A DNA stretch of 54,225 nucleotides from an uncultured Elusimicrobiales bacterium. GTDB lineage: Bacteria; Elusimicrobiota; Elusimicrobia; Elusimicrobiales; Elusimicrobiaceae. The notes under the pieces were generated by a model that saw only the letters and a program-made list of their open reading frames with translations, was not told where the DNA came from and did no database searches. The DNA is taken from the NCBI GenBank assembly GCA_944326725.1, contig CALVFA010000049.1:1-54225 (forward strand), given 5' to 3'. This document shows, piece by piece, positions 7,890 through 22,180 of this stretch (the first letter of the stretch is position 1; the number at the start of each line of letters is the position of its first letter). Made by a program: the position numbers and the translations under genes.

Positions 7890-8482
7890 TGGCAAAACGC
7901 AAACGTAAACAAAAAACAACAGTTTTACTCGTTAGAGAGGGAGAACGGAGAGAGCAATTGTTTTATGAGCGCTTATATGAATGTTGCCAACCCGAACAAA
8001 ATGGTGTCCATATAAGTACGGCTCCGGAACATGGTGGAACGGCTAATTCCATATTATCGATAGCTCTCAAAAGGAGACATTCCAGGGATAGAGTTTATGC
8101 TTGGTTTGATGCTGATAGTAAGCTTTCTAAAGAAATACGGGATAGTCTAGCAGACGCTTGGGATATAGAGGAAGGGTTTAATTCAGCCGTTCCCGATGAA
8201 AATTTACAATTTCAATACAATACCCAAATGCGCAATCCAATACTTATTGTGTCAGCACCGGTTTCCTGTGACGGTTTTTTAGTGGAATTATTGGGAAATG
8301 TAAAAATTACGTCAAAACATAAGACGGCTCATTGTAAAAATGCTTTTGATAGTTTAATAGGCGGTAATGACAAAGAAAAAGAAAGGATTTATTATCAAAA
8401 GAATCTCAATAGACAAAAATTACAAAAACTAAGGGCTAATAATAGAATTCTCGATTTATTAATGTCGATGTTTGAGTCATAA
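7889..8482 (+). CDS. RloB-like (AbiLii-like) putative effector nuclease
   Basis: 197 residues. A basic start (MAKRKRKQKTTVLL) leads into VREGERREQLFYERL, which matches the conserved acidic first motif of RloB proteins (C/REGE.TE..YF). A later acidic motif, YAWFDADSK, matches the second metal-site motif of this Toprim-like fold. A third landmark, APVSCDGFLVELLG, corresponds to the usual SNPCFE.WLL region. The family is proposed to be the nuclease or toxic arm released by the partner ATPase. That role is inference from AbiL. The start is taken at the ATG inside TAATG, which fits the normal length of about 200 residues. The frame is open 19 codons further upstream inside the ATPase gene. Confidence 0.8.
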   Translation: MAKRKRKQKTTVLLVREGERREQLFYERLYECCQPEQNGVHISTAPEHGGTANSILSIALKRRHSRDRVYAWFDADSKLSKEIRDSLADAWDIEEGFNSAVPDENLQFQYNTQMRNPILIVSAPVSCDGFLVELLGNVKITSKHKTAHCKNAFDSLIGGNDKEKERIYYQKNLNRQKLQKLRANNRILDLLMSMFES

Positions 8483-8626
8483 GTTATATTTTATATTTGA
8501 GGGTGTCGTGTAATCTGCGTGGGGCGTTGGGAGGAAACTAGTAGTCAAAACAAATTATCCTTTTTTAACAGATGTGTATTCCTGCTAGAGATCAGTATTA
8601 GAAAAAGTAAATAGGAAGGAGTGAAT

Positions 8627-9208
8627 ATGTTACAACATATGCTACATAAAATATGTAGAGATAAAATTAATCTTATTCAACAAAAGGGAGTTGAAATTAA
8701 AAATATTCCTGCTAGTGTGCAGGGAGATAAAATAAGAATATTTTTAGTTAACGAATATCGTACTTTGGCTGTCAATGAAGGTGATAAAATAATTAGGAAT
8801 TTATCTAATGGCGTTCAGGAAAAATATGTCGTATCCAATGCGGCATTCTCTGAAGGATTCCCAGGACAAATACCAGCAAATTATAACATCACGGTCAGAA
8901 AAGAAGGAATTGTGGGGACCCGTATGCCAACACATATTGTAATGGGAAATAATTCCAAAATTATGGTGAACTCTACTGACAACTCAATCAATGTTCAAAT
9001 TACGAAAGATAATATGTGGGAGCAATTGGCGGAAGTAATAAAATTACAATGCAATAATCAATCGGATTTATTAAAATTAGTGATAGAAATGAAAGGAGCC
9101 CAAGGGACTTCAAAATTTAAAGAAAAATATCAGGCGTTTATAACATTGGCTGCTAATCATATGGCCGTATTTGCGCCATTTATGCCCTTTCTAAGCAGTT
9201 TGTTGTGA
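8627..9208 (+). CDS. Uncharacterised protein downstream of the AbiL-like pair
   Basis: 193 residues, not recognised. The start at 8627 is set by the strong AGGAAGGAG five bases upstream. A GTG two codons earlier is too close to that site. The first 100 residues look like a beta-rich fold (GDKIRIFLVNEYRTLAVNEGDKII). The middle holds THIVMGNNSKIMVNSTDNSINVQI, a string of the GNN..I.VNSTDNS type that I associate with the linker of several phage-defence or effector proteins. The C-terminal 70 residues are helical and end in hydrophobic MAVFAPFMPFLSSLL, a possible membrane or multimer helix. It has its own 140-base upstream gap, so it may be a separate unit. Its 3' end overlaps the convergent nuclease gene by 52 bases. 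Confidence 0.6.
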   Translation: MLQHMLHKICRDKINLIQQKGVEIKNIPASVQGDKIRIFLVNEYRTLAVNEGDKIIRNLSNGVQEKYVVSNAAFSEGFPGQIPANYNITVRKEGIVGTRMPTHIVMGNNSKIMVNSTDNSINVQITKDNMWEQLAEVIKLQCNNQSDLLKLVIEMKGAQGTSKFKEKYQAFITLAANHMAVFAPFMPFLSSLL

Positions 9209-9690: not shown

Positions 9691-9721
9691 TAAATATATT
9701 TAAATCTGGCATTTTTTGACA
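9691..9721 (-). promoter_or_regulatory. Island promoter motif, copy D, upstream of the SNase lipoprotein
   Basis: Read on the minus strand: TGTCAAAAAATGCCAGAT, with GCCAG followed nine bases later by the -10-like TATTTA. The same motif and the same nine-base distance to a -10-like box occur at 15439, 15528 and 16708 on the plus strand. The nuclease ATG is about 30 bases beyond the -10 box. Confidence 0.6.
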
Positions 9722-11594: not shown

Positions 11595-12938
11595 ATGCCT
11601 AAAACTCAATACATACAACAAAAAGAAAAATCACAACCCTTGTTTATGAAACGCGGGGATATTTTGTCTGAATTTTTTGAAATATCCGACAAAGCCCGCG
11701 AAGGTGGTATGGGAGATGTTTTCTTCTGCCGAGATAGAAGGGATAATAAGTTTTACGTGTTGAAGACTTCCTCCAAAGCATCCGGTACAGATGAACAATT
11801 GTTTACCAAAGAATGCAAGTTCGTACTTCATTTATGGAAAAATCCTTATGTGGCTTATGCTAAAACCGTTCTTTCCGATGCTGAACATTTGTATATTGTG
11901 ATGGAATTTGTTGGGAAACAACCCTATAACTTGCAAGAAGCGGTGCAAGGGGAAACATTGGCCCGTGTGATGAATAAAACCCAGATTGAACCGAAACAGG
12001 CACTCATTTGGGCAATTCAGTTCTGCCAAGGTATGCAATTTCTGAATAATGCCGGTATGGAATCTCATAAAGATATTAAACCGGATAATATTCTAATTAC
12101 CTCGCAAAATGATATTAAAATTACGGATTTTGGCCTTGCAGGTACGGAGAAAAAAGGTGGCACGGTCGGTTATCGTCCGCCCGAATATTTTTCAAAGGAA
12201 GGACGGCTAACAGTTACCAGTGACATTTACTCATTTGGGCTCGTTCTTTATCAAATGTTAAATGGCAATAAACCGTTGCCGAATGTAACAAAATGGGATG
12301 AAGATGCCCAAAGATATGAATATATCCGTACGGATTCTATCCAAAGTGTTCATTGCCAAGATATTATTACGAAATGTTTAGCAGATAATCCGGCAGATCG
12401 TTATCAGGATTTCTATGAACTGGAAAAGGGTTTGTCGGATTATTTAAAAAAGCATTATAGTGAATATGTTTTCCCTAAAAAAGCTGCGGAAAAAATGACG
12501 GCCAGTGATTATTTCTTAAAAGGGCTTGGATATTATCAGTTAAAAGAAAATCTATGGGCATTTTTATTGTTCTCTTTGGCTATTTTTGAGGACCCCAAGA
12601 TGGCAGAAGCATATTATTATAGATCTAAGATTTCTGTTTTTCCTTGGCCCATTCGTGCCTTGCTTATAGTGCTGTTACTTGGCCTATTATTAACAATACC
12701 ACTATGGTTGTATGTAGCTGTGACACATCCTTTTGCTGCTTTTTGGTGGAATTGGATATTAACAGCAGGAATCTATTTCGCAATAGGATTCGTATGGTTG
12801 TTATATCAGTTCTCAAAAACTTTAGGATGGCGAGCATGGAAAGGTTTATGGTTTTTGGGAAAGAATATATATACTATTGTCTTTGGGCGAGATTATGCCA
12901 AAGCTTGTAAGTTGAACCCCTCCTATAGGACTCAATAA
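11595..12938 (+). CDS. Membrane-anchored Ser/Thr protein kinase (Hanks type)
   Basis: 447 residues. The kinase domain spans about residues 27-290: Gly-rich loop AREGGMGDVFF, ATP-binding Lys in FYVLKTSS, hinge YIVMEFVGK, catalytic HKDIKPDNILI (about 157), DFG at about 178-180, and YRPPEYF as the APE equivalent. The HRD Arg is replaced by Lys, and the Asp and Asn needed for catalysis are kept. A short TPR-like segment follows (ASDYFLKGLGYYQLKENLWAFLLFS), then two hydrophobic helices at about 345-412 (PIRALLIVLLLGLLLTIPLW and FAAFWWNWILTAGIYFAIGF). The kinase therefore faces the cytoplasm. It is probably co-transcribed with the FHA-like gene three bases upstream. No phosphatase gene lies nearby. 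Its last seven bases overlap the convergent RDD gene. Confidence 0.9.
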   Translation: MPKTQYIQQKEKSQPLFMKRGDILSEFFEISDKAREGGMGDVFFCRDRRDNKFYVLKTSSKASGTDEQLFTKECKFVLHLWKNPYVAYAKTVLSDAEHLYIVMEFVGKQPYNLQEAVQGETLARVMNKTQIEPKQALIWAIQFCQGMQFLNNAGMESHKDIKPDNILITSQNDIKITDFGLAGTEKKGGTVGYRPPEYFSKEGRLTVTSDIYSFGLVLYQMLNGNKPLPNVTKWDEDAQRYEYIRTDSIQSVHCQDIITKCLADNPADRYQDFYELEKGLSDYLKKHYSEYVFPKKAAEKMTASDYFLKGLGYYQLKENLWAFLLFSLAIFEDPKMAEAYYYRSKISVFPWPIRALLIVLLLGLLLTIPLWLYVAVTHPFAAFWWNWILTAGIYFAIGFVWLLYQFSKTLGWRAWKGLWFLGKNIYTIVFGRDYAKACKLNPSYRTQ

Positions 12939-15591: not shown

Positions 15592-15729
15592 ATGAAGAAA
15601 ATTATTGTATTGTTCGCAGTAATCGGCATATTTGCAGTATCGGCCGTTTCGGCTTATGCCCACAGTGGCAGAACGAATGCTTCCGGATGCCATTGGGATC
15701 ATAGAACTGGTACGTATCATTGTCATTAG
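15592..15729 (+). CDS. Small secreted Cys/His peptide (YHYH-like motif)
   Basis: 45 residues. A signal peptide (MKKIIVLFAVIGIFAVSAVSAYA) is followed by a 22-residue mature part, HSGRTNASGCHWDHRTGTYHCH. The pattern HSGRT..SGCH....TG.YHCH is one I know from the C-terminal ends of secreted thermonuclease-like proteins and from free-standing small proteins beside them. The two Cys and several His could bind a metal. In this island the nuclease domain (9157) and the peptide are separate genes that share the same upstream motif. AAGGAGA lies well spaced before the ATG. The gene is followed 52 bases later by a DUF805 gene. Confidence 0.75.
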   Translation: MKKIIVLFAVIGIFAVSAVSAYAHSGRTNASGCHWDHRTGTYHCH

Positions 15730-15781
15730 TTAACCGGGTGACAAGTAATTGCCACCCAAATCTAAAACGAGGTATAAAAAT

Positions 15782-16135
15782 ATGTTTGTCAATGCATTGA
15801 AATTGTGGAGTTGGGAAGGTCGTATCTGCCGCCGGCAATATTTGTTGGCATTTATATTAATAGTTTTTGGTGTCACTATACTTGCTGCTGGAATCAATGC
15901 TGCTGGAATCGATGGACGAGCTAGCGAAAGAGCAGCTCTAGCACTTATGTTTCTTCTTCAGCTGGCTTTAATTCCCACGCAAATTAAGCGTTTGCATGAT
16001 ATCGGCTGGGGCGGAGAGGTTATTCTATTGGGAATCATTCCCGGTATTAACCTAATCTTGGGTCTTGGGTTGTTAATCTTTTCCGGCACGAAAGGTCCTA
16101 ATGAATACGGCGAAGACCCGCATACCGGTAAATAA
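15782..16135 (+). CDS. DUF805 family small membrane protein
   Basis: 117 residues. The N-terminal WSWEGRICRRQYLLAFILI matches the F.GR.SR.eFW..... start of DUF805. Three hydrophobic helices follow, with the family hallmark RLHDIGWGGEVILLGIIPGIN and the ending GTKGPNEYGEDP. The function of the family is unknown. Members are inner-membrane proteins often carried on mobile DNA. The start is set at the ATG with CGAGG upstream. The frame is open 11 codons further to a TTG without a ribosome site. It is probably co-transcribed with the Cys/His peptide gene and, since no terminator follows, possibly with the structured region downstream. Confidence 0.85.
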   Translation: MFVNALKLWSWEGRICRRQYLLAFILIVFGVTILAAGINAAGIDGRASERAALALMFLLQLALIPTQIKRLHDIGWGGEVILLGIIPGINLILGLGLLIFSGTKGPNEYGEDPHTGK

Positions 16136-16140
16136 TTTTA

Positions 16141-16690
16141 GCGTTGTGAAAGACAGGGGATAGGGCCCTTGTTAAAAATACGTGGTGTAGTATAGACAAC
16201 AGTTACTGTCTAGGTAGTTGGGCCAGGGGCGGTCCGTTACAGAAGGGCGACTTGGAAACGAACTGGCTTATTATCCCGATAGGGTATTTAAGGTTGTAAA
16301 GTATTTACATATTTAGTGCGTAAGAAAGTTATGTGCGGTTTATGGGATAACTTTCTGCTGCGAAAGAAAGCCCAAAAATAGAAGAAATCTGCCTTTTGTT
16401 AGGGCAAAGGCCTCCGCCAACTGTGCGTTGGGTCCAACCGTTGAAAGAAACGGTTCCCGTTCCGCGGATTTCTCAAAATAGGTTTCTATCTGCCCCGATT
16501 TTTCAGGTAGAAACAGGTTTTACGGAAACAGCATATTATTCTGTGGGCGCATATAACCGGAAACCTAAACTTTCTGGTTTACTCTCATAACCTTAGAAAG
16601 GGTTTTAACCCGTAATAAGTGCCGTAAGTGAATGTAAAAACTCGGCAGCGTAATTGGCCAAGTAGATTGAATTTCACAGCTTGGTGTCTT
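16141..16690 (+). ncRNA. Candidate large structured non-coding RNA
   Basis: About 690 bases between DUF805 and the NYN gene lack a believable gene but are packed with hairpins. Stems I can pair by eye are TAGACA/TGTCTA (16193-16212), GCCAG/CTGGC (16222-16267), TGTAAA/TTTACA (16295-16309), AGAAAGTTAT/ATAACTTTCT (16323-16356, ten perfect pairs), GCCTTTTG/CAAAGGC (16391-16411), CCAAC/GTTGG (16417-16431), AACCGTT/AACGGTT (16436-16455), GTTTCTATCTG/CAGGTAGAAAC (16482-16514), AACCGGAAA/TTTCTGGTT (16555-16579), AACCTT/AGGGTT (16589-16604), TGCCG/CGGCA (16620-16647) and CCAAG/CTTGG (16658-16684). GGCCC 16164-16168 can close with GGGCC 16220-16224. Size and density recall the ornate phage- and island-borne RNAs ROOL and GOLLD, but I cannot match a consensus. 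The plus strand is assumed from the neighbours. Ends are approximate. Confidence 0.55.
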
Positions 16691-16693
16691 GGA

Positions 16694-16738
16694 TTTGTAT
16701 AGGGAAATGTCAAAAAACGCCAGATTTATGTCTATAGT
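16694..16738 (+). promoter_or_regulatory. Island promoter motif, copy C, upstream of the NYN-Pif1 operon
   Basis: TTTGTATAGGGAAA, TGTCAAAAAACGCCAGAT, with TATAGT nine bases after GCCAG, then GTGTAGG. It lies just after the hairpin-rich region and about 90 bases before ATG 16828. The leader between them contains ACCCTTAACAAAAGGGT, a small hairpin ending close to the ribosome site. Confidence 0.6.
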
Positions 16739-16827
16739 GTAGGGGGCCACACCCGGCAGGGAGTAATCCTATAGTTGGCATATCTTAATATCACCCTTAA
16801 CAAAAGGGTATAGCTAAGGAGAATTAT

Positions 16828-17223
16828 ATGACAAGTCTTATCATTGATGGTTCCAACGTAATCCGTTCGGCTTACGGTCTGCAAGGTAAGCCAAATTTTG
16901 ACCTAGAAGCCCGCTTGGCTAATCAATTGGTTCAATATCTATCCGGTCTCAATACCGATACTTCCCGCACAATTGAATGTTATTTTGACGGTTTTAAGCG
17001 TGCCATAAGCCGCCCGCGTGGCCTTAGTGTGTTCTTTTCTGCCAAACATAAAGCCGACAAATTGATTGTCAATTCAGTTTACGAACATATACAAAACTAT
17101 GATCACAATGTATGTGTGGTAACGGCAGATAATGAGATTATCCAAAAATCGCGTGCTTGCGGAGCCCGCGTACAATATACCTACGACTTTTTGAAAGGTT
17201 TTTGGCCCTATATCAATTTTTAA
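16828..17223 (+). CDS. YacP-like NYN domain protein (putative endoribonuclease)
   Basis: 131 residues. LIIDGSNVIRSAYG supplies the first PIN/NYN acidic residue. IECYFDGFKRA, FFSAKHKADKLIV and VCVVTADNEI..KSRACGARV supply the remaining acidic and Asn/Ser positions of the YacP/Rae1-type NYN fold, and the C-terminal YDFLKGF matches the family end. YacP-type proteins (Rae1 in Bacillus) are ribosome-associated mRNA endonucleases. An RNA-cleaving role here is inference. The ribosome site AAGGAGA is good. It is the first gene of an operon (spacing 10, 2 and 16 bases to the next three genes) and lies directly downstream of the candidate structured RNA, which could be its substrate or regulator. Confidence 0.8.
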   Translation: MTSLIIDGSNVIRSAYGLQGKPNFDLEARLANQLVQYLSGLNTDTSRTIECYFDGFKRAISRPRGLSVFFSAKHKADKLIVNSVYEHIQNYDHNVCVVTADNEIIQKSRACGARVQYTYDFLKGFWPYINF

Positions 17224-17233
17224 GGAGACTGAC

Positions 17234-18574
17234 ATGACAACACAAATTATTCCTTCCGAATTGGAAATGACAGACGAAATCAAACAAGCCATTTATTATA
17301 TTAACCATGGGGATAATGTCTTTATTCACGGCCGTCCGGGAACGGGAAAATCTACCTTTCTCAAAGGACTGCGATCGCACTTAAATGTAAAAAGCAAGAA
17401 TGCTATGTTTGTGGCTCCTACGGGTATTGCGGCTTTGAATATTCACGGGCAAACGATTCACTCTTTCTTTCACATTAACCCACAAGACATGCATGCGCCG
17501 CTGGACTATGCCAACCGAAATGCCCTAAAAACAGCTTGGAAAAACTTGGATATTTTAGTTGTGGACGAAATATCCATGGTAAGAGCAGATATTTTTGACA
17601 AGATGAACGAGCGTTTGCAGACCGTATTGGATGATGAACGCCCTTTTGCTCATAAACAAATTATTGTAGTGGGGGATTTGAATCAGTTAGCCCCGGTGCT
17701 GAACGAAAAGTCCAATTTAGAGCAAGACCAACAATGTAAGAAAACTTATGAAACTTCTTATGTGTTTGAAGCCAAATGTTGGGAAGGAATGAATTTTAAG
17801 CATATTTTCTTCACAAAAATTTTCCGCCAAACGGACGTGGAGTTTACAGGTAATTTAGCTGCATTGGAATCGCCACACAGTAAGAATTTCTCTCAAGCTC
17901 TTGCTTATTTCAACAAGCGTGTAACTGATAAACGTCCGCAAGAAGCTGTGTGTTTATGTGCGCGTAAAATTGATGCGGAGAAAATTAATCAAGCCGAACT
18001 TGATAAGTTGCCGCAACCTACCTATCGTATACCTGCTTTTCAAAGTAGTCGCTACGATAACGATTGGAAAGAAAGCAATTGCCCGGCTCCCAAGGTGTTA
18101 TACCTGAAAATCGGCGCCAAGGTTATGTTTGTGCGCAATGATGAGAAAAAACTGTTTGTAAACGGGATGTTGGGACGGGTTAAAAGTATCAACTGCGTGA
18201 AGGAAAAGACGATTAAAAGTATTACCGTGGAAGTTGCCGGAAATCGCGAAGTGGAAGTGCATTGTTGTACTTGGTATAAGACGATACTTAACAAAAAAAC
18301 GGGCCGTCAGGAACCGGATATGGAAAATTATTTTTGCCAATTCCCTTTACAACTGGCCTGGGCCACAACCATCCATAAGGCACAGGGCATGACTTTTGAC
18401 TCTGCTTATGTGGATATGGGCGAAAAGGGAGCTTTTAGTATCGGACAAACCTACGTGGCCTTAAGTCGTGTCCGCACCGTTGACGGATTGTGGCTTAAAA
18501 AACCGTTGCAAGAGTCGGATATTTTGCCGAATCCGGCCGTAGAAAAATTTTACAAAGATATAAAAGGAGAATAA
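17234..18574 (+). CDS. Pif1-like superfamily 1B DNA helicase
   Basis: 446 residues. SF1 motifs in order: Walker A GRPGTGKSTF (about residue 34), motif Ia VAPTGIAALNIHGQTIHSFF, Walker B LVVDEISMVRADIFD, motif III VVGDLNQLAPV, motif IV region FRQTD, and the C-terminal LAWATTIHKAQGMTFDSAYVD followed by YVALSRVRTVDGL (motifs V and VI). These are diagnostic of Pif1/RecD2-type 5'-3' helicases. The ribosome site AAGGAG lies within the gap after the NYN gene. Pif1 helicases on mobile elements assist replication or transfer, and several defence systems also pair a helicase with a nuclease. Either fits. It is probably a soluble cytoplasmic enzyme. Confidence 0.92.
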   Translation: MTTQIIPSELEMTDEIKQAIYYINHGDNVFIHGRPGTGKSTFLKGLRSHLNVKSKNAMFVAPTGIAALNIHGQTIHSFFHINPQDMHAPLDYANRNALKTAWKNLDILVVDEISMVRADIFDKMNERLQTVLDDERPFAHKQIIVVGDLNQLAPVLNEKSNLEQDQQCKKTYETSYVFEAKCWEGMNFKHIFFTKIFRQTDVEFTGNLAALESPHSKNFSQALAYFNKRVTDKRPQEAVCLCARKIDAEKINQAELDKLPQPTYRIPAFQSSRYDNDWKESNCPAPKVLYLKIGAKVMFVRNDEKKLFVNGMLGRVKSINCVKEKTIKSITVEVAGNREVEVHCCTWYKTILNKKTGRQEPDMENYFCQFPLQLAWATTIHKAQGMTFDSAYVDMGEKGAFSIGQTYVALSRVRTVDGLWLKKPLQESDILPNPAVEKFYKDIKGE

Positions 18575-18576
18575 CT

Positions 18577-18801
18577 ATGGAATTAGTGGGTGGGATCGGA
18601 GTATTTGTATTGTTGATTGTAGGTGGACTACATGCTATGGTACCTCAAAACTCTAAATTACGTTTGGGTATTTGTATTTGTTTGGCTGTCGGCCTTTGCT
18701 TTACCGGAACGATGCATGGGGTTTTATTGGCGATTGGGCTGATATTTGTGGAAATGATTGTAAACAAAGTCATTTCTTTTTGGAAAAATATATCATTATA
18801 A
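18577..18801 (+). CDS. Small two-helix membrane protein
   Basis: 74 residues, not recognised. Hydrophobic segments at about 4-21 (VGGIGVFVLLIVGGLHAM) and 30-62 (LGICICLAVGLCF, then VLLAIGLIFVEMIV) with a short basic C-terminus (KNISL) indicate an inner-membrane protein with two or three helices. It starts two bases after the helicase stop, with the ribosome site AAGGAG inside the end of the helicase gene, so it is certainly part of that operon. Size and hydrophobicity would suit a holin-like or anchor protein, but there is no direct evidence. Confidence 0.65.
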   Translation: MELVGGIGVFVLLIVGGLHAMVPQNSKLRLGICICLAVGLCFTGTMHGVLLAIGLIFVEMIVNKVISFWKNISL

Positions 18802-18817
18802 AATAAGGAGAATGGTT

Positions 18818-19687
18818 ATGAATAGAAAATTTTTTGTTGTTTTGATGAGTAGTTTATTTATTTTTGCTTGTGGGGAAAGATTACCAACGGTAGATAGTAG
18901 CATTCCGGAAACATATAAGGCCTCGTTGGATCGTGTAAGTCAGTCCGTACCAAAAGAAAAGGAAGAAAATTTTAACTTTTCCATCAGTATTTTGGCCATG
19001 GAATCTATTAAAGAACACATTGTCGATGGAGTTATCATGACTGATGATGAACAAGACGAACAAGGTAAGAAAAAATTTCAAAAATTCTTGCACGGCCTTA
19101 ATTACAAGCAAATTATGTCTCGGAGTGATCAAGTCATGAAATCAAAAATGGAAAGGGCTAAGGAACAATATGAAGAAGAATTGATGAATACGATTGATGC
19201 TATTGTTGCCGCTAAAAAAATTAAAACGGAATTATCTAAAATTATCATAACTGACAAGGCCATAGATAGTAAGAACTTATCTATGAAATTAGAAAATAAA
19301 ACTAATTCTTCACTAAAGAAACTCTTAGTATTGGGATTAGTGGCCCCTACGGAGGATTCATTACCCAATCCACGAGTTCTATTTATTGATTTTGAAAAGC
19401 CTCTTGCTCCAAAAGAAGCGCGAACAGTTGTAATTCCCTTGAAGGAAGAATATGGCTGGAAACCTACTGATTATTTGGCAATTCCCCGAATTTCTTTGGA
19501 TATAGTTCGTGCCGAAGATGTTAAGAAGAAAGTAATACTCAACGACAAATTGGCCGAAGCATTTGGGGGGTATGTGGATCTTCGGAAGAATTATCAAGAA
19601 CTGCAAACCTTATTGGAAGGGCAGAACGATTGGGTGTCTGTTTTCACAGTAGAAAATATCGCCAAAGGGTTTTTCCCACTTAAATAA
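18818..19687 (+). CDS. Lipoprotein, DUF6694-like N-terminus
   Basis: 289 residues. A lipoprotein leader (MNRKFFVVLMSSLFIFACG) has the lipidated Cys at residue 18. The next segment, LPTVDSSIPETYKASLDRVS, resembles the start of DUF6694 lipoproteins (IDxSSEEAxKxSLxKVxxxL). The rest is helical and charged, then beta-rich after residue 150 (LSKIIITDKAIDSKNLSMKLENKTNSS, VVIPLKEEYGWKP). The function is unknown. The start at 18818 is chosen over an ATG six bases earlier, because AAGGAG (18805-18810) is then seven bases away. It is the last gene of the NYN-Pif1-membrane protein set. A periplasmic-facing lipoprotein and a membrane protein beside cytoplasmic nucleic-acid enzymes suggest a transfer or envelope-linked process. 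Confidence 0.7.
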   Translation: MNRKFFVVLMSSLFIFACGERLPTVDSSIPETYKASLDRVSQSVPKEKEENFNFSISILAMESIKEHIVDGVIMTDDEQDEQGKKKFQKFLHGLNYKQIMSRSDQVMKSKMERAKEQYEEELMNTIDAIVAAKKIKTELSKIIITDKAIDSKNLSMKLENKTNSSLKKLLVLGLVAPTEDSLPNPRVLFIDFEKPLAPKEARTVVIPLKEEYGWKPTDYLAIPRISLDIVRAEDVKKKVILNDKLAEAFGGYVDLRKNYQELQTLLEGQNDWVSVFTVENIAKGFFPLK

Positions 19688-19738
19688 TATAACTTGACTT
19701 CTAGGGCGTGATAAGCGGTAATGTGTATAGGAGCGAAT

Positions 19739-20122
19739 ATGCAAAACTATACACAATTAACCGCGCGGGAATTACGCCTAAAATGGGCCGAAATCATAGG
19801 CCGGCCTATACCACCAATTGGGCGAAGTTTAATTATCAAATATCTGTTGTGGTATGAACAAGCCAAGCGTGAGAAGATTTCTCCACTTGGCTTTTTTCAT
19901 GAAGTGTCTCAAGCTGCTAAAACTACTGATAAACGCCCCAAAGCTACACTTGAAGTTGGCTCTAAAATGATTCGGTCCTACCAAGGTACGAAATATGAAG
20001 TAGAAATTATACCACAAGGGTATCTATATAGGCACAAAACCTATAAAAGTTTATCCGGTGTAGCCAAGGCCATTACAGGTAAGAGTTGGAACGGGAATGT
20101 ATTCTTTGGAGTGAAAAAATGA
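19739..20122 (+). CDS. DUF2924 family protein, partner of the serine recombinase
   Basis: 127 residues. LTARELRLKWAEIIGRPIPP near the N-terminus, LLWYEQAKREK, then GTKYEVEIIPQGYLYRHKTYKSLSGVAKAITGKSWNGNVFFG match the DUF2924 pattern (...LR..W...fG...P..., H.V.V...Gf.y.G..Y.SLS.IA..ITGt.WnG..FFGl). DUF2924 genes are regularly found directly upstream of a large serine recombinase and are thought to help it bind DNA. The start is set by TAGGAG before the ATG at 19739. The frame is open six codons further upstream. The stop overlaps the recombinase start as ATGA, so the pair is translationally coupled. Confidence 0.82.
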   Translation: MQNYTQLTARELRLKWAEIIGRPIPPIGRSLIIKYLLWYEQAKREKISPLGFFHEVSQAAKTTDKRPKATLEVGSKMIRSYQGTKYEVEIIPQGYLYRHKTYKSLSGVAKAITGKSWNGNVFFGVKK

Positions 20123-21747
20123 GTGATAAGAAAATACGTTGCGCTATCTATACACGCAAATCAACCGAAGAAGGATTAGAGCAAGAGTTTAATAGTTTAC
20201 AAGCCCAACGGGAGGCGTGCGAGTCTTACATTAAAAGCCAAAAGCATGAGCATTGGCAATTGCTTTCTACCGAATATGATGATGGCGGGTATTCAGGTGG
20301 TAACATGGAACGCCCGGCTTTAAAACGCCTACTCCAAGATGTTCAAAACGGCCTTGTTGATATTATCGTTGTGTATAAGATAGACCGTTTAACCCGTAGT
20401 TTAATGGACTTTAGCAAAATTGTGGAGATATTAGACAAGCATAATGCCTCGTTTGTGTCTATCACCCAGCATTTTAATACCACCACCAGTATGGGGCGGC
20501 TCACATTAAATATGCTACTCTCATTTGCCCAGTTTGAGCGTGAAGTAACGGGAGAGCGTATCCGGGATAAGATTAGCGCGAGTAAGAAAAAGGGTATGTG
20601 GATGGGTGGCAAACCGCCGTTAGGATATTACCGCAAGGATAAGAAGATATACCCGGATGAAGACAAAGCAAAACTTGTTACTAACATATTCCAAAAGTAT
20701 GTAGAACTGAAAAGCACTACACTCCTAAAAGGGTGGCTTGAAGAGCAAGGAACGAAGTTATCAGTAGGTAACTTGAACTGCATTTTACGTAATAAAGCAT
20801 ATATTGGTCTAGTTGGACATAAGGGGACATGGTACCCGGGCGAACACCAAGGGATAATCTCCCAAGAGTTATTTGGGCAAGTCCAAGCCGTAATGGCTGA
20901 TAACCGTATTAACCGCCAACATTATGATCCTAAAAAGAGCCTTTTGTCTGGCAAACTATATGATGACAAAGGCAACGCTATGAGCCCCAGTTGGAGTACG
21001 GGTAGTAGCGGTAAAATATACCGCTATTATGTGAGCCAAGCCATTATCCGCAAAGAGTCGGGCAAAGTGGGGAAAGTTAGTAAGGTATCGCTCCCCAAAT
21101 TGGAGCAGTTTATAGATAATTGGTTTAGTGAATTTTTGAAGGATAAAAATAAAATATACCCGTATATCCAAAAGTTTGGCGTAAGCAAACAAAAGGAAAT
21201 TATCAAACGGCTACCATCATATCCGATAACGCGGGATGTAGAAAAAGAACTAATTAAACATGTTAAATTAAATCCAAACAAGATAGAAATTACACTATAT
21301 CAAGAACAAGTAACCGAACTATTAAATGCCATTTATGAAAATCGGGAAATGCACCAACTCAAACCTGAAGAATTAAAAAATGAAAATACTTATACGGAAC
21401 TGTACCATATCGGTACAATAGCCAACGGAGAAAAGATAATTGTAGGTCACTTTGTAGAACCAAGAAAAAGACCCAATACTGAACTTATCAAAATCTTAAA
21501 TCAGGCTTATACATGGCACCAAGACGTAATCAGTGGTACAGGCACACAGGATATAGCCAAGTGGGATAAAGTATGCGTACAATATGTCCGCAGGATCCTC
21601 AATTTGAGCTTTTTGTCTCCTAACATTGTACGTGCTATCCTAAATGGTACCAAACCCACAGATTGCACACTCAAAAAATTACTCTCCATTCGCACGCCAG
21701 ATTGGCGGGAACAGGAAGATATAATTAGAAATCAAATTGGTAAGTAA
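20119..21747 (+). CDS. Large serine recombinase (DUF2924-associated type)
   Basis: 542 residues. The resolvase catalytic domain has the nucleophile Ser15 in AIYTRKSTEEGLEQEFNSL, and VVYKIDRLTRSLMDFSKI carries the active-site Arg cluster. FNTTTSMGRLTLNMLLSFAQFERE is the standard middle. A recombinase domain follows (KGMWMGGKPPLGYY). Next, LLSGKLYDDKGNAMSP and IYRYYVS are the form seen in DUF2924-linked recombinases in place of a classic zinc ribbon. A C-terminal HTH-like piece is QDIAKWDKVCVQYVRRILNLSFLSPNIVRAIL. It would integrate and excise the island by 2-bp-core att recombination. No duplicated tRNA segment is seen, which fits a serine rather than a tyrosine integrase. Confidence 0.93.
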   Translation: MSDKKIRCAIYTRKSTEEGLEQEFNSLQAQREACESYIKSQKHEHWQLLSTEYDDGGYSGGNMERPALKRLLQDVQNGLVDIIVVYKIDRLTRSLMDFSKIVEILDKHNASFVSITQHFNTTTSMGRLTLNMLLSFAQFEREVTGERIRDKISASKKKGMWMGGKPPLGYYRKDKKIYPDEDKAKLVTNIFQKYVELKSTTLLKGWLEEQGTKLSVGNLNCILRNKAYIGLVGHKGTWYPGEHQGIISQELFGQVQAVMADNRINRQHYDPKKSLLSGKLYDDKGNAMSPSWSTGSSGKIYRYYVSQAIIRKESGKVGKVSKVSLPKLEQFIDNWFSEFLKDKNKIYPYIQKFGVSKQKEIIKRLPSYPITRDVEKELIKHVKLNPNKIEITLYQEQVTELLNAIYENREMHQLKPEELKNENTYTELYHIGTIANGEKIIVGHFVEPRKRPNTELIKILNQAYTWHQDVISGTGTQDIAKWDKVCVQYVRRILNLSFLSPNIVRAILNGTKPTDCTLKKLLSIRTPDWREQEDIIRNQIGK

Positions 21748-21793
21748 ATACTGATTTGATATACTAAATGTGCGGTTAATAAAGGAGTTCTAT

Positions 21794-22180
21794 ATGGATA
21801 AAAAAAGAGTATTTATCAGTTTTGACTATGATAACGATGTAGCTATAAAAGAATTATTAGTGGGACAGGCTAAAAATGAAGATTCGCCCTTTTTAATTTC
21901 TGATTGGTCAATAAAGGAAGAGTCCGTTACATGGAAAGCGGAAGCTGCCGAAAGGATTAAACGTTCAGATGTGGTTATTGTATTGTGTGGTGAGAATACA
22001 GATTGTGCTAGAGGGGTGGGTATCGAGTTGGAATTAACACAACAATTGGATAGACCCTATTTTTTGTTAGCGGGATATTCAGACAAAACTTGTCGTAGAC
22101 CAATTACTGCCAAATCCACCGATAAAATGTATCGGTGGACTTGGAATAACTTAAAGTTGTTACTTGAGGGCAAGCGTTGA
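21794..22180 (+). CDS. TIR-like (MTH538/ThsB-type) protein
   Basis: 128 residues. KKRVFISFDYDNDVAIKELLVGQAK is the start of the MTH538 TIR-like family (Pfam TIR-like domain, also seen in Thoeris ThsB). A second landmark is VTWKAEAAERIKRSDVVIVLCGENT, and GVGIELELTQQL carries the Glu at the position used for NAD hydrolysis or cyclisation in active TIRs. The flavodoxin-like length of about 130 fits a single domain. The start is set by AAGGAGTTCTAT-ATG. It lies 46 bases after the recombinase and points at a caspase-like gene 32 bases away. In Thoeris, ThsB senses infection and makes a signal for a ThsA effector. No ThsA gene (SIR2 or similar) is visible in this window. Confidence 0.82.
   Translation: MDKKRVFISFDYDNDVAIKELLVGQAKNEDSPFLISDWSIKEESVTWKAEAAERIKRSDVVIVLCGENTDCARGVGIELELTQQLDRPYFLLAGYSDKTCRRPITAKSTDKMYRWTWNNLKLLLEGKR

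Follow-up and report, generated by a model that had tools for sequence, protein, structure and literature searches.

Very few bacterial RNA classes are as large and elaborate as OLE, GOLLD, and ROOL, and the jobs of these RNAs are still unsettled. OLE RNA (RF01071) is about 600 nt long and has an ornate fold; its commonest immediate downstream neighbor is oapA, whose membrane-protein product OapA binds OLE RNA and delivers it to the membrane (PMC12265935). The hosts of OLE are Gram-positive. ROOL is carried by phages or prophages, often near tRNA islands, and assembles into RNA-only nanocages. Many GOLLD members exceed 800 nt (PMC12286853).

An initial annotation of a 54,225-nt stretch of DNA (the window; contig C49 of a 1.44-Mb assembly in 62 contigs) proposed a large structured RNA, possibly of a new class, at 16141–16690 and likened it to ROOL and GOLLD. 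Exact pattern matches to named public genomes ('RUG' assemblies) assigned the window to Elusimicrobium of rumen origin. The RNA resembles OLE in size and ornateness, and fam10, which codes for a small membrane protein, lies near it at 6 of 10 loci, immediately downstream at 2. It shares size, pseudoknots, a rumen source, and a mobile context with ROOL (PMC12286853). Like GOLLD, it is large and ornate and combines a conserved 3′ part with a region that varies more. However, cmscan of the region against Rfam, including the ROOL, GOLLD, and OLE models, returned nothing at the curated thresholds or at E ≤ 10, and the divergent homologues from genomes G014 and G004 likewise gave no Rfam match. The RNA has neither a sequence nor a structure match to OLE, fam10 matched nothing in Pfam, NCBIfam, PHROGs, or PDB, and the RNA is sporadic and horizontally moving in Elusimicrobium, whereas OLE belongs to Gram-positive hosts. 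Unlike ROOL, it was not found in phages, and the single tRNA in the window lies 6.7 kb away; at 450–580 nt, it is also shorter than many GOLLD members. The likeness to ROOL and GOLLD thus held for size but not for family membership or phage carriage. By the tests made, the RNA is a new class, loosely of the OLE/GOLLD/ROOL kind and unrelated to any of them.

Extent and conserved fold of the RNA

The gap between the end of the DUF805 ORF (16135) and the start of the NYN gene (16828) was confirmed, and the RNA occupies about 550 nt of it, with both boundaries accurate to within a few nucleotides; full-length homologues measure 453–582 nt. The region was described as gene-free, and this held: no conserved ORF was found among the homologues compared, because the longest ORF (64 codons in the window) changes frame or strand between clades or is missing altogether, and the alignment has frequent indels of 1, 5, 7, 8, 11, and 104 nt. 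Some stretches are without change in the homologues, including unpaired ones. A terminator-like signal was looked for 3′ of the RNA and not found, so read-through into the downstream genes is possible.

Folding of the single sequence gave z-scores of −1.98 on the + strand and −1.88 on the − strand, with 4 and 3 of 100 shuffles, respectively, folding as well. The excess over shuffled sequence was therefore mild. Such modest evidence is too weak as proof of a structured RNA, and folding energy was set aside as proof because z was about −2 on both strands.

The comparative evidence for a conserved fold, drawn from nine full-length homologues that are 58–99% identical, is decisive; the tenth copy (G008) is incomplete and was left out. 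RNAalifold gave a consensus of −180.3 compared to −93.2 ± 10.4 (best, −113.5) in a null of 60 refolded alignments, each simulated along the fitted tree with the gap pattern retained. Compensatory pairs numbered 37 compared to 19.8 ± 4.0 in the null (maximum, 30), the covariation being carried by four deep clades within one genus. With one sequence per clade (four representatives), the consensus was −195.6 and the null −128.3 ± 13.7. When the most divergent member, G004, was withheld, the fold predicted from the others was 79% paired in G004, compared to 60.3 ± 3.9% (maximum, 66%) in the null. The named structure comprises 138 pairs in 20 helices, with 93.2% of cells paired and 44 pairs changed on both sides, against 20.4 ± 2.5 in shuffles and 3–10 in slid versions, but it was picked with the alignment in view, and the refolded-null tests are fairer. 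Helices 4, 12, 13, and 19 of this structure are each broken in one clade. The reverse complement folded more weakly (−142, with 28 compensatory pairs), indicating that the + strand is the RNA strand. Across ten species, copies differ by up to 40% in sequence with the fold kept. The region 16141–16690 (+) is almost certainly a real large structured RNA class, its existence being about as certain as sequence comparison allows; covariation, the absence of an encoded protein, and the lack of an Rfam ROOL or GOLLD match all uphold the initial proposal.

Features of the locus and of the RNA are collected in Table 1. P1 is a pseudoknot that links the 5′ end to the loop of the 3′ hairpin over a span of 525 nt, closing the whole molecule, and shows up to four pair types at a single position. 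Its 5′ strand has a competing conserved local helix (16141–16147/16178–16183); the two pairings are mutually exclusive, so a switch is possible. Inside the RNA is a long multi-branched arm, and the TTATTAT arm leads into the 17-bp helix. The optional domain has its own closing helix (16383–16392/16464–16473), with a compensatory change in G014. The hairpin density noted initially was borne out for local hairpins at 16152–16173, 16323–16356, 16482–16514, and 16555–16579, but it was unconvincing alone, and the architecture is mostly long-range.

Table 1. Coordinates of the RNA, its structural elements, and neighboring features in the window.
Feature	Position	Strand	Details
DUF805 membrane protein gene	15749–16135	+	PF05656, E = 3.2e-17; stop 6 nt before RNA
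Large structured RNA	16141–16690	+	9 full-length homologues; covarying consensus fold; no Rfam match at E ≤ 10
P1, 5′ strand	16144–16151	+	Pairs with 16672–16679; 72/72 cells paired; 3/8 pairs compensatory
Hairpin P2	16152–16173	+	4/8 pairs compensatory; 97% of cells paired
Pairing with 3′ tail	16194–16198/16685–16689	+	AGAC/GTCT to AGGC/GCCT in G014
Long-range pairing	16200–16206/16650–16656	+	5/7 pairs compensatory; incompletely formed in G020 clade
TTATTAT arm, nearly invariant	16267–16274/16612–16619	+	100% paired; C-G to U-A in G014
Long-range helix, 17 bp	16287–16303/16580–16597	+	6 compensatory pairs; 95% of cells paired
Optional domain, ~104 nt	16378–16480	+	Clean deletion in alignment; absent as a unit from G020, G072, G082
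Hairpin P6, 11 bp	16482–16514	+	6 compensatory pairs (helices 16 and 17)
P10 hairpin stem	16658–16662/16680–16684	+	45/45 cells paired; one compensatory pair
P1, 3′ strand	16672–16679	+	In loop of hairpin P10
Repeated element, AATGTCANNAAANGCCAG then TATAGTGTAGG	16706–16741	+	Starts 16 nt past RNA end
NYN (YacP-like) putative RNase gene	16828–17223	+	PF05991, E = 1.4e-9
Pif1/Dda-like helicase gene	17234–18574	+	PF05970, E = 4.5e-32; phrog_325
fam10, 74-aa membrane protein gene	18577–18801	+	Strong homologues in RNA-bearing genomes only
DUF6694-like lipoprotein gene	18812–19687	+	PF20404
DUF2924 and large serine recombinase genes (island mobility module)	19721–21747	+	PF11149, PF00239, PF07508; phrog_95

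Distribution and horizontal movement

A blastn search of 60 related genomes recovered full or partial copies of the RNA in five other species. Covariance models of the middle (R1, 16262–16370) and the 3′ part (R2, 16529–16691) concordantly placed the RNA in 10 of the 66 Elusimicrobium species, with one copy each. R2 recovered all ten genomes and R1 nine, G008 being missed because its copy is cut by a contig end. No copy was found outside the genus by R2 in 341 genomes of the phylum, although the large scans ran strict filters that more remote relatives could escape. Viral contigs and phage and plasmid collections, searched by pattern and by blastn, also yielded no copy. With two patterns, the one exact match in viral contigs was attributed to chance, since it lies inside a phage ORF and lacks the 3′ part; a single Arenibacter pattern match in genome contigs, with a weak R1 score, was likewise regarded as chance.

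The similarity of the RNA is uncoupled from that of the core gene mnmA, which indicates that the RNA moves horizontally. G000 and G029 share 93.6% of RNA nucleotides and 68% of MnmA residues, and G020 and G082 share 98% and 79%, respectively, whereas the RNAs of G014 and G004 are only 58% identical with MnmA at 87%. Recombinases with 82–89% identity occur in many genomes without the RNA; the RNA is therefore cargo, and a role as a required part of the recombinase system was ruled out. These comparisons show the RNA to be a horizontally moving cargo of accessory islands in rumen Elusimicrobium species.

In G004, about 2.65 kb separate mnmA from a GAF-domain gene, compared to about 70–240 nt in 18 of 20 other genomes, as in an occupied versus an empty site. 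This site appears as an insertion hot spot, with extra DNA in G004 (L012), G018 (L084 and L090), and G084 (L101); it was empty in 18 other genomes examined.

Gene neighborhood and the fam10 membrane protein

The RNA had been placed in a recombinase island just upstream of an NYN gene, and Pfam assignments of the serine recombinase and NYN proteins agreed. This NYN-type arrangement occurs in seven genomes (that of the window, G029, G064, G061, G020, G072, and G082). A DUF805 or ankyrin gene stops 2–7 nt before the RNA, which is followed by NYN-Pif1, the DUF6694-like lipoprotein gene, and mostly then DUF2924 and the large serine recombinase. The remaining loci are arranged differently: in G014, a 230-nt RNA, a YHYH peptide, the large RNA, fam10, and a Sel1 lipoprotein; in G004, the 230-nt RNA, the large RNA, a 160-aa membrane protein, and a Sel1 lipoprotein; and in G008, the large RNA and then fam10. 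The Sel1-like lipoproteins of G014 and G004 occupy the place of the DUF6694-like lipoprotein.

The AATGTCANNAAANGCCAG element occurs without mismatch at three places in the window (15437, 15526, and 16706) and with one mismatch at 9706 (−), compared to 0.28 matches expected by chance with up to 2 mismatches allowed. It lies directly 3′ of the RNA, between the RNA and the NYN gene, in all seven NYN-type loci, and the copy at 16706–16741 is a possible promoter of the NYN gene. Copies near other island genes are possibly a shared promoter or operator.

Several further elements were observed around the RNA. A 45-aa secreted YHYH-motif peptide is encoded at 15592–15726 (NCBIfam NF033223), and in G014 such a peptide also immediately precedes the RNA. 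A protein-kinase gene resembling the PD-T4-6/mads6 defense kinases (11595–12938) and a TIR-like (ThsB-like) protein (21770–22180) are defense-like neighbors of the RNA region. The second conserved element, RNA-like and about 230 nt long, has a terminator-like end and is present in 10 of the 66 Elusimicrobium genomes with up to three copies each, for example, outside the window at L012:10770–11000 (+) and L010 about 8400–8640 (−). Most copies immediately precede unrelated accessory genes, among them those for pilins and lipoproteins. The element gave no reproducible match to Rfam; an ARRPOF identity was rejected, since one copy scored 17.3 bits against a gathering score of 127.2 and nine other loci did not reproduce it.

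Among the neighboring genes, fam10 is the closest companion of the RNA. Strong matches were found in 6 of 10 RNA-bearing genomes and in none of 56 RNA-free genomes, where two weak partial matches (E values, 0.004 and 0.009) were discounted. The chance of this co-occurrence would be about 2e-6 if species were independent, but they are not: the six genomes represent three independent contexts, and four of them have the same island type. The gene is directly 3′ of the RNA in G014 (33 nt) and G008 (67 nt). It is absent from G004, G020, G072, and G082, so fam10 in its present form cannot be obligatory. An AlphaFold2 model of the protein has three helices with a mean pLDDT of 84 and is consistent with an integral membrane protein.

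Mode of action and its alternatives

We consider the best overall explanation, with a probability of roughly 60%, to be a trans-acting RNA class, perhaps a membrane-linked ribonucleoprotein, whose function we infer from sequence and context. The RNA would probably act in trans, as a stand-alone molecule instead of a leader tied to a single gene, because its fold is self-closing, the genes 33–140 nt downstream vary, and in the NYN islands a repeated promoter-like element precedes NYN. The opposing reading, that the RNA is a very large 5′ UTR controlling a downstream gene or operon by fold switching (e.g., P1 versus the 16141–16183 helix), draws on the same-strand gene that stands within that distance at every locus, on the lack of a visible terminator, and on the two mutually exclusive conserved pairings at the 5′ end. 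This seems unlikely, given that the downstream gene differs by context (NYN, fam10, or the unrelated 160-aa membrane protein), that the fold closes ahead of the gene, that a length of 453–582 nt far exceeds most known leaders, and that the repeated promoter-like element separates the RNA from the gene at the seven loci of NYN type. A role as substrate or regulator of NYN-Pif1, for example, as an RNA restraining or guiding the NYN ribonuclease in a defense-like cassette, would fit the 7 of 10 loci with NYN directly 3′ of the RNA and the restriction of close NYN homologues (81–99% aa) to these seven genomes. The tie to NYN-Pif1 suggested initially stood to this extent but failed at G014, G004, and G008, where the RNA adjoins neither NYN nor Pif1 and no close NYN match was found elsewhere in the genomes; these loci rule out NYN-Pif1 as an obligatory partner. 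A distant NYN (41%) also stands without the RNA in G015, and this reading is improbable.

Two further readings place the activity in the RNA itself. An RNA that travels on mobile elements and assembles itself into an oligomer without need of a protein partner, like ROOL or GOLLD, would agree with the size, the pseudoknotted ornate fold, and the carriage by mobile islands, and the optional domain recalls the unresolved linkers of ROOL and GOLLD (PMC12286853); it is nevertheless quite unlikely, since neither the ROOL nor the GOLLD model of Rfam matched at E ≤ 10 and no copy was found in the phages, plasmids, and viral contigs searched. A catalytic RNA or decayed self-splicing intron could account for the large size and the invariant, partly unpaired stretches, but the Rfam models of group I/II introns and known ribozymes gave no match at E ≤ 10, there is no intron ORF, and the RNA lies between genes and not within one, making this highly improbable.

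For the preferred trans-acting RNA, a possible mechanism is that of a scaffold of a ribonucleoprotein working with fam10 and the lipoprotein encoded alongside. This mechanism is favored for its parallel with OLE RNA and OapA, and a membrane-protein partner is proposed only tentatively. That the whole is a mobile OLE-like membrane ribonucleoprotein of Elusimicrobiota, unrelated to OLE in sequence, is rather doubtful.

One more unrelated class, its fold supported by covariation, makes the question of what such large RNAs do tractable by comparison. Such work can draw on its clear pattern of presence and absence within one genus, on the domain that some copies have lost naturally, and on the small membrane protein that co-occurs with it. 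The class also shows that large ornate RNAs can travel as accessory cargo. If the membrane partnership is true, this RNA would join OLE as the second large natural RNA, independent of the first, that works with a dedicated small membrane protein.
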